64,000 nucleotides of DNA, from NCBI GenBank assembly GCA_905160935.1, contig CAJHZI010000475.1, positions 913,501-977,500 on the forward strand, given 5' to 3'. Source of the stretch: Enchytraeus crypticus (lineage: Eukaryota > Annelida > Clitellata > Enchytraeida > Enchytraeidae). Positions 324 to 60,679 of the stretch are shown here, one piece after another. The notes under the pieces were generated by a model. It was not told the DNA's origin. It made no database searches and saw only the letters and a list, made by a program, of their open reading frames with translations. The first letter of the stretch is position 1. Every line of letters starts with the position of its first letter. Both the position numbers and the translations under genes were made by a program.

Positions 324-30694
<30,371 letters not shown>

Positions 30695-35392: not shown

Positions 35393-35621
35393 TATATTTA
35401 TTTCAATACACTCAATATATACAGTGACATACACAAACAAGGCCGTCAAAGAGGTCACAAGTAACCTATCTAGTTGACCACCCCTCAGTCATCACACAAA
35501 TTGAACTGCCACACCACTCCGTTCTATAAACTTCTACACTACTACTATCTAATTCACTCTCAGATATATTTACAGAAGAGAGAATGCAGTAAGGTAAAGT
35601 AAACACACAATCACGCATTTC

Positions 35622-35850
35622 GAAATGATCAACTATGTTGATATCTAGCACTTTTAATACCACATGTTGAAACCGTTAGGCAATTCAGTCCATTTTTCGT
35701 ATAACCAGTCCAGTGAATGTCTGCGATTTTACTCTCAGATCAGCGCGGCTGGGATTCGATCCCACGAGAGTTCAATTCACCCCAGAATCTGTCATTTAAA
35801 ACTTCATGACCTTACCCCTAAGCTATTGAGACAATGTCAGTGCCACTGAC
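35622..35850 (-). mobile_element. tRNA-like SINE-B
   Basis: Minus orientation. From the right: TAGCTTAGGGGTAAGG (A-box-like), then B-box GGGATCGAATCCC region, then ATCTGAGAGTAAAATC and CTGGACTGGTTATACG. Related copies at 38376-38570 and 40703-40940; A to B spacing is longer than in a tRNA. Confidence 0.75.
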
Positions 35851-36890: not shown

Positions 36891-37065
36891 ACACTAATGT
36901 TAATCCTGTAATAACAACATCCTACCGGCCTAATGACATCTGACTATTACTATTAACAATTGGCAGTTTACTAATTACCTGGCCATAAACTTCTTATATT
37001 TAAATATTTACATATAAATTAACTTGAGTTTCCTGTAACAACCTCCACAGTGTTATCTTAAATGT

Positions 37066-37683
37066 GTTATCTAACATATGCTATATAGCATTAGTTATCT
37101 AGCACGTGCTATCTAGCAGGCATTATTTAGCATATACTAAGCAGCATGAGATATCTAGCACATGTTATCTAGCACATGTTATTCAGTACATGTTATTCAG
37201 TACATGTTATTCAGCACATGCTATTCAGCACATGTTATCTAGCACATGTTATCTAGCACATGTTATCTAGCACATGTTATCTAGTGCATGTTATCTAGCA
37301 CAGGTTATCTAGCACATGTTATCTAGCACATGCTATCTAGCACATGCTAGCTAGCACATGCTATCTAGCACATGTTATCTAGCACATGTTAGCTAGCACA
37401 TGTTTTTCAGCACATGTTATCTAGCACACGTTATCTAGCACATGTTATCTAGCACATGTTACTCAACACATGTTAGCTAGCACATGTTATCTAGCACATG
37501 TTAGCTAGCACATGTTATTCAGCACATGTTACTCAACACAAGTTAGCTAGCACATGTTATCTACCACATGTTATCTACCACATGTTACCTAGCACATGTT
37601 ATTCAGCACATGTTATTCAGCACATGTTATTCGGCACATGTTATCTAGCACATGTTATTTGGCACATGTTATTCAGCACATGT
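37066..37683. repeat. 14-bp satellite that begins inside the SIAH coding end
   Basis: About 43 units of AGCACATGTTATCT or AGCACATGTTATTC. On the SIAH sense strand the first unit, AACATGTGCTGAAT, contains the last two sense codons and stop (Met-Cys-TGA). The whole visible 3' flank of SIAH is this array. Confidence 0.93.
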
Positions 37684-37850
37684 TGATGGTGACGTTAATG
37701 CTGAGGTTACCGTTGTCTGCAAACAGCTGAGCGACGTTAGTATCAAAGACGAGACAGTCGCTGCTGTTGATTGCTGATTGGACGCCGTCGTGTATAGAGC
37801 GTGGTGTGGCTTCCCACGTTAGTCGCCTCTTTAACCCGTTCAACTCTAGT
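37673..37850 (-). CDS. SIAH1: SIAH exon 6: C-terminus and stop
   Basis: 178 nt, [20 protein letters not shown] to [12 protein letters not shown]. Acceptor TTGAGCAG|A. The final twelve bases double as the first satellite unit. Confidence 0.95.
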
Positions 37851-39602
37851 CTGCTCAACAATGTAGGTTAATAAATCAGATAATCAATCAATCAGTTAAT
37901 CAACAGATCAATCAATCATGTATAGAGCGGGGTGTGGCTTCCCACGTTAGTCGACTCTTTAATCCGTTCAACTCTAGTCTGCTCAACAATGTCGGTTAAT
38001 CAATCAATCAGTTAATATATCAATCAGTTAATCAATCAATCAGTTAATCAATCAATTAATCAACAGATTAATCAATCATGTATAGAGCGTGGTGTGGCCT
38101 CCCACGTTAGTCGCCTCTTTAATCCGCTCAACTCTAGTCTGCTAAACAATATAGGTTACTCAATCAATCAATTAATCAATCAATCAGTTAATCAACCAAT
38201 CAGTAAATCAATCAATCAATTAATCAATCAATCAGTTAATCAATAAATCAGTTAATCAATCAATCAGTTAATCAACAGATCAATCAATCATGTATAGAGC
38301 GGGGTGTGGCTTCCCAGGTTAGTCGTCTCTTTAATTCATTCAACTCTAGTCTGCTCAATATCACTATATAAAAAAGCTAAACACGCATTATAGTGAAATG
38401 ATCAACAGGGTTGATATCTAGCACTTATCATACGCTTAAACCGTTAGGCAATTAAGACCATTTTCTGTATAACCAGTCCAGTGAATGTCCGAGATTTTAC
38501 TCTCAGATCAGCGCTGGGATTCGAACCCATGAGGGTGCAATTCACCTCAGGATCTGTCATTTAGGTGCTGAACTAACCTGTAGGCACTGAACTAACCTGT
38601 AGGCATTGAACTAACCTGTAGGCAAAGTTTTCAGCCTGTTTTCTCGTGCCTATGAGCTGTACTATTGTGTAGAAGAGTTGATTGCCCTCAGTCTTCTCTT
38701 GTTTCTCTAGCACCAGCATGAAGTGATGCCCAAAACACGTCTGCATCATCACCCAGTCCACTGCACCGGGCAGGTTTATATCTGTCGCTAGAAACACTAT
38801 GTCCTCACCTAGTCAATCAATCAATCAATCAATCAATCAGTCAATCAATCGATCAGTCAATCAATCAATTAATCCGTTCGTCAGTCAATCAATCAGTCAA
38901 TCAATTAGTCAGTCAATCAATCAATCAATCAATCATCACCCAGTCCACCGCACCAGGCAGGTTTATATCTGTCGCTAGAAACACTATGTCCTCACCCAGT
39001 CAATCAGTCAATCAATCCATCAGTCAATCAATCAATCAATCATCATTACCCAGTCCACTGCACCGGGCAGGTTTATATCTGTCGCTAGAAACACTATGTC
39101 CTCACCTGGTCAATCAATCAATCAATCAATTAATCAATCAATGAAAACTATGAGATGTGTTTGAGGCACTGAGACCTTGTAAACATATAGCACAGTGATG
39201 ATAACTATGAGAATAGGCACGCAGACCTTGCAATGTTGTGATGGTTTTGTGTTGTTGCAGTAGATGAGGCATAACCTGGTCCAGTGACCCCTGCCACTTA
39301 CACGAGGCACCAGGGCATGGGCACCCGTAGGGTCTAAATCAATCAATCAATCTATCAATCAATCCATCAAAAGATCAATCAATACATTAATCAATCTATT
39401 AATCCACTAATAGTTCACATTAATATAGTGAAGCTCTGAACGAAATTATAATAAATCGAAAGAACAAATGTTAATAAATAAAGATTATAAAAAACCATTA
39501 AAAGCTTAGAAAGATAAAAGCTCAAAACTGACTTTAAGAACCAATTCTCAAACCTTGAACCAGAAATGTATAACTATCTTTGAAATGATTTATAATTAAC
39601 TA

Positions 39603-39660
<58 letters not shown>

Positions 39661-41790
39661 TTAATTAAATGATTAATTTAATTAATTAATTAAATGATTT
39701 ATAATTAACTAATATAATTAATATATATATATGAATTAATGAAATGATTTATAATTAACAGACAATATTTAGTCTGCCGAATTACTTACACATTTTTCCT
39801 TCCAGTAGCTCTACAGTGAAACCTTGAAATCCTACACTTTTTTCTCTAATGATTCAAATCCCACAGTCAATGAGATGAAAATATTATCGAGACTTGACAC
39901 TACAAAAGATATATATCTTGTAAATTTCAAAACTATCTGAATATTGAGGATAGCTAAACATAAAAATAGAACACACGAAATAGAACATACATAGATAAAT
40001 AGACAATAAATATCAGCAAAACATTAATTGTAGAATACATCAAAAGCAGAAGCTGATGAACTACATTGAAACCCATCTTCAGCAAAGTCTTCATTAGCTT
40101 CGAAAATTGGATGAACTTCAAGAAATCTTATCTTTCTGCTTTAGATTCTTCTCTAATTTTTTCTCTAATGATTCAAATCCCACAGTCAATGATATGAAAA
40201 TATTATCGAAGACTTGACAGACCTGAATTCACAACCGTCTTCATGATTTGTTTTCTCTGTGTGGGGTAGCGTGCACTCGCAGCCATAGTTAACGTACCGA
40301 CATGGGAATAAGACCTGACCCGCAACTTTTTCCATCGCTAGATTCCTTATGTTACCTTGAAAAGTAATCACACAAAAATTAACCAAATGTACGATACTGT
40401 ACATGTATTTGCTAATCGATGTTATGGTTGCTATTTTGCTAATTTGATGTTACGATTGATATGCTTGTCAATCAATATTATTGTGTTAGTCGAGAATATT
40501 GAAAAAAAAACACCAAACAGCTTTTAAAATTATATTTCTTAGACTATATATATTTTCTGACGAAGGCACAGGGGGCCCACCTCTTCATAAGCAGAATCCC
40601 ACAAGAATAAAGGTATATCAAAATGAATGTTATAGATGGTCTAAAGATCCACTCGTACGTGAACACGAGGAAGAAAACGGAGCATAGAGATGAGTGGATG
40701 TGTTGTACAGTAAACACGCATTATAGTGAATAATCAACTATGTTGATATCTATCACTTTTAAAACCACACGTTTAATCCGTTAGGCAATTTAGACCATTT
40801 TCCATATAACCAGTCCAGTGAATGTCCGAGATTTTACTCTCAGATCAGCGCAGCCGGGATTCGAACCCACGAGGTTGTAATTCACCTCAGGATTTGTCAT
40901 TTAAAACTTCATGACGTTACCCCTACGCTATTACGACATTCAATACTAACTGCCTACTGGCAGGTCCATGTATACCATGGACCTGCCAGTAGGCAGTGCA
41001 TTAAGAGAGTGACAGAGATATATTTTAGGTAACATCCATTAGACAGTTCTAGACAGCCTATTTACGAGAGCTCTGCAGCGATACTAACCGAGAGGACCTC
41101 TGCACGTGGGACAGAACTGAAGCTTGGGTCGACAGTGCGAGCAGACAATATGGCCGCTCTGACACTGCATGATTGGCGGAAGAGCATAGTCAAAACACAC
41201 CGGACACTCAAATATAGACGCTAGGTCCTGACTGCCTCCCGCTCCCCCTGTCAATCAATCAATCAATTAATCAGTCAATAGGTCAATCAATCAATCAATT
41301 AAACAATCAATCAGTCAATTGAACAATTAATCAGTGAATAAATCAATCAATCAATCAATCAATTGAACAATCAGTCAATATAGCAATCAATAAACTTATC
41401 AAATCACTTAGAAAATCAATGAATCAATTAGATCACTAAATCTAAATATAATAAATAAATAATATTAAATAATAATAATTAATAAATAATATTATAATAA
41501 CATATAGTAATAATAGTAATACTAATAAATAGTAATAATAATAAATAAATAGTAAAAAATAAATAAATAATAATAAATAAATAGATAAACAATAAATAAA
41601 TAATATAAATAAATGTAGATCAATAAAAGTAGATCAATAAATCAATCAAGGATTCCAAGAAGAATTGTGTGTGGCCATACGAACAAAATAAATAAAGAAG
41701 TATAGAATCTTAGAGTTCTTAGCTCTTACCGGCTGCAGCTGCAGCCGAGAGTCCTTTCACCATATTCGCTGCTGCCGTCTGTCTACTCAT
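37673..41790 (-). CDS. SIAH1: SIAH (seven in absentia) E3 ubiquitin-protein ligase, six exons, complete
   Basis: RING-type E3 ligase that ubiquitinates substrates for proteasomal destruction, cytoplasmic and nuclear. Exons 41790-41730, 41247-41089, 40355-40223, 39333-39227, 38808-38616 and 37850-37673 join in frame to 276 residues. MSRQT start; RING C35, C38, C49, H53, C56, C59, C66, C69; [12 protein letters not shown] linker; two zinc fingers (about residues 90-153); then the substrate-binding TRAF-like fold with [52 protein letters not shown] and the INVTINMC end. Vertebrate SIAH1 is about 282 residues and usually has few coding introns. Oddities: duplicated pieces of exons 5 and 6 inside introns, a triplicated donor, and a satellite starting at the stop codon. 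Head-to-head with the SR-rich gene, 2.2 kb apart. Confidence 0.95.
37912..37978 (-). pseudogene. SIAH partial exon 6 copy A
   Basis: Duplicate of the exon 6 acceptor (TTGAGCAG|A) and the first 22 codons: [21 protein letters not shown], then TGA supplied by the adjoining GATT array. One residue differs from exon 6. Frame and AG intact. Confidence 0.88.
38072..38138 (-). pseudogene. SIAH partial exon 6 copy B
   Basis: Same 67-nt segment: acceptor [29 protein letters not shown] then D and TGA. Frame and AG intact; 160 bases upstream of copy A. Confidence 0.88.
38284..38350 (-). pseudogene. SIAH partial exon 6 copy C
   Basis: Same 67-nt segment: acceptor [30 protein letters not shown] then D and TGA. 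It is the first acceptor of this type met after the exon 5 donor. Confidence 0.88.
38376..38570 (-). mobile_element. tRNA-like SINE-B inside SIAH intron 5
   Basis: Same core as 35622-35850; B-box GGGTTCGAATCCC on the minus strand near 38520. It directly abuts the triplicated donor region. Confidence 0.75.
38571..38620 (-). promoter_or_regulatory. Triplicated 5' splice site of SIAH exon 5
   Basis: Three copies of a 19-nt unit containing CCTACAG|GTTAGTTCA; candidate exon ends at 38616, 38597 and 38578. Only the first keeps the SIAH frame into exon 6 (19 and 38 are not multiples of three). Confidence 0.85.
38616..38808 (-). CDS. SIAH1: SIAH exon 5: first half of substrate-binding domain
   Basis: 193 nt, [20 protein letters not shown] to KQAENFAY. 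Acceptor GACTAG|GT at the edge of a GATT array; donor CTACAG|GTTAGT, which recurs twice downstream at 19-base spacing. Confidence 0.95.
38811..39000 (-). pseudogene. SIAH partial exon 5 copy D, acceptor lost
   Basis: 38934-38997 duplicates the exon 5 start (GTGAGGACATAGTGTTTCTA onward to VDWVM), but the acceptor AG reads GG. 38811-38933 is ATCA repeat. Confidence 0.8.
39032..39105 (-). pseudogene. SIAH partial exon 5 copy E, acceptor intact
   Basis: Acceptor GACCAG|GT followed by [20 protein letters not shown], then M-I-D and TGA from the repeat. It is reached first after the exon 4 donor. Confidence 0.85.
39227..39333 (-). CDS. SIAH1: SIAH exon 4: zinc finger 2
   Basis: 107 nt, [20 protein letters not shown] to HKTITTLQ. 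The correct frame differs from the longest open frame here. Acceptor GATTTAG|A, in a GATT-type context; donor CAAG|GTCTGC. Confidence 0.9.
39340..40200. other. SIAH intron 3
   Basis: (ATCA) repeat at 39337-39400, (TA)n at 39607-39657, and TTAATTAAATGATT repeats at 39657-39750. A block TTTTTTCTCTAATGATTCAA, CCCACAGTCAATGA at 39838-39875 recurs at 40155-40195, a 300-base spaced duplication that abuts exon 3. Confidence 0.7.
40223..40355 (-). CDS. SIAH1: SIAH exon 3: linker and zinc finger 1
   Basis: 133 nt, [18 protein letters not shown] to NHEDGCEF. Acceptor TTTCAAG|GT; donor TTCAG|GTCTGT. Confidence 0.93.
40703..40940 (-). mobile_element. tRNA-like SINE-B inside SIAH intron 2
   Basis: Best-preserved copy: GCGTAGGGGTAACGTCATG head, B-box GGGTTCGAATCCC, then ATCTGAGAGTAAAATCTCGG. 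Confidence 0.78.
40944..41015. repeat. Inverted pair of family C ends
   Basis: CTGCCTACTGGCAGGTCCAT followed by its inverse ATGGACCTGCCAGTAGGCAG with an 8-base spacer, giving a strong hairpin in SIAH intron 2. Confidence 0.75.
41089..41247 (-). CDS. SIAH1: SIAH exon 2: RING domain
   Basis: 159 nt holding the whole C3HC4 RING ([13 protein letters not shown] to CPTCRGPL). The acceptor, GATTGATTGACAG|GG, is part of a GATT array. Donor CTCG|GTTAGT. Confidence 0.95.
41251..41660. repeat. (ATCA)n and (AAT)n arrays filling SIAH intron 1
   Basis: ATCA repeats at 41251-41430, then AATA/AAT repeats to about 41650. GATT on the sense strand, joined to the exon 2 acceptor. Confidence 0.9.
41730..41790 (-). 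CDS. SIAH1: SIAH exon 1: N-terminus
   Basis: 20 codons plus one base, [20 protein letters not shown], the same start as vertebrate SIAH1. Donor GCCG|GTAAGA. Confidence 0.9.
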
Positions 41791-58167: not shown

Positions 58168-60599
<2,432 letters not shown>

Positions 60600-60679
60600 C
60601 TAGCTGCATCAAAACAAAAATACAGTAGAATTATTTGGCATCAAAATGTATGGAATTAAATTATAACATACTTGTTTAG

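Follow-up and report, generated by a model that had tools for sequence, protein, structure and literature searches.

Tandem units that carry copies of splice sites have been described in the lancelet globin genes as mirages. According to that report, the units carry AG/GT signals, inner units are homogenized whereas outer units are excluded, and mirages seem, by RT-PCR, not to disturb splicing (PMC3087553). In human segmental-duplication genes, internal tandem repeats with units of ~30 bp on average occur at exon-intron boundaries and are accompanied by altered or newly formed introns for which transcripts are reported (PMC2812944). Tandem duplication is also the basis of the Rogers model of intron gain (described in PMC3087553; also PMC4974935). 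In the literature searched, which misses most subscription journals, the name mirage was not found applied to any gene of another group.

Here we describe exon-edge copies in a SIAH gene located in a stretch of 64 kb (hereafter the window) and in a related locus of the same genome. The mitochondrial COX1 of the host is open under codes 4, 5, 9, and 13 and has a protostome-like appearance. Probably, then, the host differs from the carrier of the described mirages in not being a lancelet, and the novelty of the case probably lies mainly in the taxon, i.e., in mirages of a probable protostome. Weaker COX1 matches on three other contigs (C361, C424, and C796; L013-L015) are broken by TAA or TAG and are likely nuclear mitochondrial DNA copies.

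Repeated exon edges in the two SIAH loci

The window contains a complete six-exon SIAH coding region (41790-37673, minus strand) with a spliced frame of 276 amino acids and a stop codon. This gene model is predicted, its exon borders being taken from sequence and homology. The product has the Pfam domains Sina_RING, Sina_ZnF, and Sina_TRAF, and the 123 residues encoded by exons 5 and 6 align over their full length with solved SIAH1 chains. The coding exons are:

41730..41790, minus strand: SIAH exon 1, coding part (spliced ORF)
41089..41247, minus strand: SIAH exon 2, RING (spliced ORF and Pfam domain)
40223..40355, minus strand: SIAH exon 3 (spliced ORF)
39227..39333, minus strand: SIAH exon 4 (spliced ORF)
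38616..38808, minus strand: true SIAH exon 5 (homology and spliced ORF)
37673..37850, minus strand: true SIAH exon 6, the last coding exon (spliced ORF of 276 aa; 59 residues matched to SIAH1; Sina_TRAF)

Introns 4 and 5 are 60 and 52% repeated, respectively, as measured by a near copy at 21 or more of 24 bases. Three of the five SIAH acceptors (at 41247, 39333, and 38808, minus strand) directly adjoin GATT tracts. Since TTGAT fits the animal branch-point consensus, such tracts could supply many branch points. Intron 5 holds three copies of the start of exon 6, which are parts of repeat units spaced at 128, 160, and 212 bp:

37912..37978, minus strand: exon 6 start copy c1, ending in SIHD-TGA (sequence comparison)
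38072..38138, minus strand: exon 6 start copy c2, ending in SIHD-TGA (sequence comparison)
38284..38350, minus strand: exon 6 start copy c3, the outermost unit of the cluster, ending in SIHD-TGA; its upstream flank is not GATT-type
37867..38290, minus strand: GATT-type tracts between the exon 6 copies (TRF and repeat families)

Most of what the sequence-only reading had said about this cluster is borne out. The three copies precede the true exon, AG stands before all four starts, the phase is identical, and the proposed acceptors (37850, 37978, 38138, and 38350) coincide exactly with the minus-strand bases at which the exon sequence begins. Copies c1, c2, and c3 read (R)LEL...PRSIHD and then a TGA derived from the repeat, so that splicing to any of them would drop the last 37 of the 276 residues, as counted on the spliced translation. 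Coding differences are indeed few: the three copies differ from the true exon 6 at 3, 3, and 6 of 60 bases, respectively, a likeness that excludes chance, and among themselves at 4 to 7. Of the acceptors in competition, three of four are nearly identical over ~20 bases before and ~60 bases after the splice point, and the outermost copy (c3) shares the exon part but only the last ~ten intron bases. With flanks so nearly identical, the selector of the right acceptor must be largely elsewhere, with the body of the exon, length, and 3' end processing as candidates.

The claim that each copy is closed by a stop supplied by the repeat holds for the origin of the TGA, but the three stops are not independent. 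All three copies share one exon-to-GATT junction, in which CTATACA is joined to TGATTGATT (with TGATTGATTAA in c2 and TGATTGATTGA in c1 and c3), and a single origin is therefore the simplest account of the stops. The described layout of exon 6 is likewise correct but incomplete, since the start of exon 5, the exon 5 donor, and the stop codon are also repeated:

38925..38995, minus strand: exon 5 start copy A, with the acceptor AG lost (GG), running into a GATT tract and a stop
39032..39105, minus strand: exon 5 start copy B, with AG kept, running into a GATT tract with a repeat-derived stop
38568..38624, minus strand: exon 5 donor, GCCTACAG followed by GTTAGTTCA, in three 19-bp tandem copies
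37065..37684, minus strand: 14-bp minisatellite starting in the last SIAH codons and the stop (AACATGTGCTGA)

Thus, AG is kept in four of the five exon 5 and exon 6 start copies of this gene and lost at 38995. Compared with the lancelet mirages, the SIAH units are alike in that they are arranged in tandem across exon edges, in that both acceptors (exons 5 and 6) and a donor (exon 5) are affected, and in that many but not all units keep their splice signals. They differ in that a large part of several units consists of GATT tracts, the unit spacing reaches 212 bp, and the stop codon, too, seeds an array. An Rfam scan of the window at gathering scores gave no match.

The genome of the host comprises 524 Mb in 802 contigs, and a search of it revealed a SIAH relative, SIAH-b (locus L007), on another contig. 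No GPCR match was found near it in the five fetched stretches (49.5 kb), and the H3 gene in its vicinity has the opposite relative orientation to that in the window; because of this different neighborhood, SIAH-b was treated as a paralog. Its tandem units span the starts of exons 3, 4, 5, and 6, the end of exon 5, and the stop codon (five exon edges and the stop), with the repeats at the exon 4 start and the exon 5 donor being free of GATT. Both exon 6 copies of SIAH-b (b_d1 and b_d2) carry the same exon-GATT junction as those in the window. The number of copies is two in SIAH-b vs. three in the window, a difference between two loci of one assembly that may parallel the copy-number instability between haplotypes of the lancelet mirages. 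AG, phase, and stop are intact in b_d1, b_d2 has indels and has lost the frame, and both exon 5 copies of SIAH-b are frame-shifted by a one-base insertion each. The suggestion that an intact AG, frame, and stop make the window copies meaningful decoys is therefore not supported, as comparable copies have lost either AG (38995) or the frame (SIAH-b); one duplication junction together with recency accounts for their intactness. Divergence between the two loci is uneven, exon 2 being 96% identical over 145 bases and exon 3 75% over 138, which suggests conversion between the paralogs.

As in the human boundary repeats, minisatellites overlap exon-intron boundaries in SIAH and vary between paralogs; compared with the units reported in PMC2812944, the SIAH acceptor units are longer, and they are described here from genomic sequence. 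The SIAH duplication carries splice signals, as in the tandem-duplication model of intron gain, whereas the copies sit inside the existing intron 5 of the gene model, with no new intron seen there.

History of the exon 6 copies and coding constraint

The tree was built for the six alignable exon 6 copies (a_true, c1, c2, c3, b_true, and b_d1), b_d2 being left out because of its indels. Among the 105 trees there is one shortest, with 19 steps, and there are four with 20 steps. The shortest tree separates the two SIAH loci and places the outermost copy, c3, deepest within its locus; two of the four 20-step trees do not keep c3 in that position. Inner units that are alike and a boundary unit that is excluded are features of the lancelet mirages as well, and they are found here on small data, in the shortest tree and not in all of the 20-step trees.

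Private singleton changes comprise five nonsynonymous and one synonymous in the exon 6 copies vs. zero and four, respectively, in the true exons (Fisher test, one-sided P = 0.024, two-sided P = 0.048; small numbers). Site 18, the direction of which is uncertain, was counted once per group, and without it the counts are 5/0 and 0/3. The paralog, used as an outgroup, shows several states to be shared, and the private changes carry no signal of constraint. For instance, AAT, AGA, and ACC of c3 are also present in the true exon of SIAH-b, and these states are therefore probably old. The unpolarized count over the exon 5 and exon 6 copies, which left out the junction codons and had no outgroup, gave 3 nonsynonymous and 9 synonymous differences (P from 0.0003 to 0.0011, depending on the mutation model). 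The constraint on the copies to which this 3/9 count had pointed was rejected, the count being superseded by the paralog-polarized singletons (5/1), although both counts are small. As judged from the aligned copies, the coding constraint expected of a functional alternative exon does not appear, with private changes at 5/1 and frames lost in the paralog, and selection for the use of the copies is not supported.

Exon-edge copies in other genes

In the window, the start of exon 2 of a rhodopsin-family GPCR gene (28250, minus strand) has one copy 106 bases upstream (28356; 22/24 bases matched), which comprises the acceptor and the first 11 exon bases. Altogether, 19 edges of three genes were examined, including the SIAH start and stop codons. 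Five of them have a near copy at 21 or more of 24 bases, namely the exon 5 start, exon 6 start, exon 5 donor, and stop of SIAH, and GPCR exon 2, and no near copy at this threshold was found for the other 14. The histone H3 gene of the window (59115-60603, minus strand) has an intron (59275-60441) that holds an array of 51-bp type with 9 acceptor-like GCTGTT..AG units; the strict first motif pattern matched the true site alone in this intron, and a looser pattern matched 9. A relative on contig C604 (L009:6213-6494) is devoid of this intron and keeps a donor-like GT after ALQ.

The generality of the copies was assessed on all 27 proteasome matches and the best 30 of 151 Ras matches in the host genome. 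In 6/27 proteasome matches and 8/30 Ras matches (best 30 of 151), some coding positions have a high-complexity copy nearby, at a distance of no more than 500 bases. Among these 57 matches (Ras again represented by the best 30 of 151), 14 have copies when weak cases are included, and 9 have at least 10 copied positions; one of the nine stronger cases (L033) consists of a repeat in the interior of a match that contains stops and is perhaps not an exon edge. These counts refer to copied positions in matches and not to individually mapped exon edges. A clear case is a proteasome exon start (L028), in which the likely acceptor and ~30 coding bases are copied 126 bases upstream. The structure is therefore not confined to SIAH. 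Copied positions are rarer inside the exon matches (4.4% for proteasome and 2.8% for Ras, the latter in the best 30 of 151) than in the flanks (9.8 and 8.7%, respectively), as expected if coding sequence resists repeats.

The 5/19 edges compare with 6.6% of high-complexity window positions at 21/24 (P = 0.007, post hoc), whereas over all window positions the background is 16% at 20/24, and against that background the edge excess fails to convince. When arrays were placed at random, P was 0.03 for SIAH-a (4/6 arrays) and 0.001 for SIAH-b (6/9) with an overlap of at least 5 bases, and 0.13 (3/6) and 0.004 (5/9), respectively, with an overlap of at least 10; this test is suggestive only, because the arrays were merged by hand and the two loci are related. 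An enrichment of arrays at exon edges is not established. It is possible, though doubtful, that exon edges are preferred and not merely tolerated as starting sites of tandem arrays, that near-identical splice-site copies accompany a considerable minority of the conserved exons, and that real exons are continually rewritten by exchange over their first tens of bases.

Origin and possible use of the copies

We consider it very probable, from the comparison of sequences, that the exon 6 copies are mirage-type repeats subject to neutral repeat turnover and not a built-in switch to a shorter protein. Most likely, the decoy interpretation reduces to repeat turnover at exon edges, which is of a kind already named. 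The evidence read directly from the DNA comprises one junction in the three window copies and in the two paralog copies, clustering by locus, altered coding in the copies, and the reappearance of such units at further exon edges and in further genes. A segment made up of the end of intron 5 and ~60 bases from the start of exon 6 may once have been rejoined to an intronic GATT tract, and the resulting tandem unit would then have multiplied as GATT tracts slipped or underwent unequal exchange. The real exon would be the last unit, still attached to the rest of exon 6, the others being neutral passengers of the intron. Exchange would keep the inner units and the true exon start alike within each locus, and the outermost unit would largely escape it. 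The true site is presumably still used in normal splicing, with the copies having no effect on it. What speaks against this reading is that AG and frame are kept in 3/3 exon 6 copies, that the unpolarized count alone would suggest constraint, and that human exon-intron-boundary tandem repeats can alter splicing (PMC2812944).

It is very unlikely that the copies are functional alternative starts of the last exon, yielding SIAH minus its last 37 residues, e.g., for a dominant-negative effect or dosage control. The stop of such a short form would lie in the last exon and should therefore escape junction-dependent decay; AG, phase, and stop are intact in b_d1 as in all three exon 6 copies of the window, and boundary tandem repeats in human paralogs can give alternative splicing (PMC2812944), which is the strongest printed reason found against assuming the copies to be silent. 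However, of the private changes in the copies, five are nonsynonymous and one is synonymous. In SIAH-b, b_d2 and both exon 5 copies are frame-shifted, one exon 5 copy in the window is without AG, and similar copies occur at unrelated exons. Even less credit is due to an assembly artefact, i.e., a repeat collapsed or expanded: simple-repeat arrays are difficult to assemble, but the copies mutually differ at 4 to 7 of 60 bases, and a second locus on another contig has a version of its own in which the junction is identical. Target-site duplications of a mobile element, with the GATT tract as its remnant, are just as improbable, although a dispersed repeat of ~200 bp lies directly beyond the outer copy (38371-38563), since the units are unequal in length and run head to tail, and the mirages at the exon 4 start and the exon 5 donor of the paralog are free of GATT.

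If mirages outside lancelets are as frequent as the small sample indicates, they would plausibly provide material from which new introns and altered exon edges arise, as has been proposed for the lancelet globins (PMC3087553). Mirages are a pitfall for gene annotation as well. The remaining interest lies in the tolerance of splicing to mirages and in whether exon edges really attract arrays; if they do, such loci would offer a genome-wide natural test, outside lancelets, of acceptor choice by the spliceosome when the candidates are nearly identical.

The dispersed ~200-bp repeat is present in the window at 35609-35814, 38371-38563, and 40709-40919, and outside it at L007:1229-1435, L007:8883-9090, and L009:8045-8258. 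A reverse transcriptase fragment (Pfam RVT_1), probably from a LINE, is located at 11680-12372 of the window.
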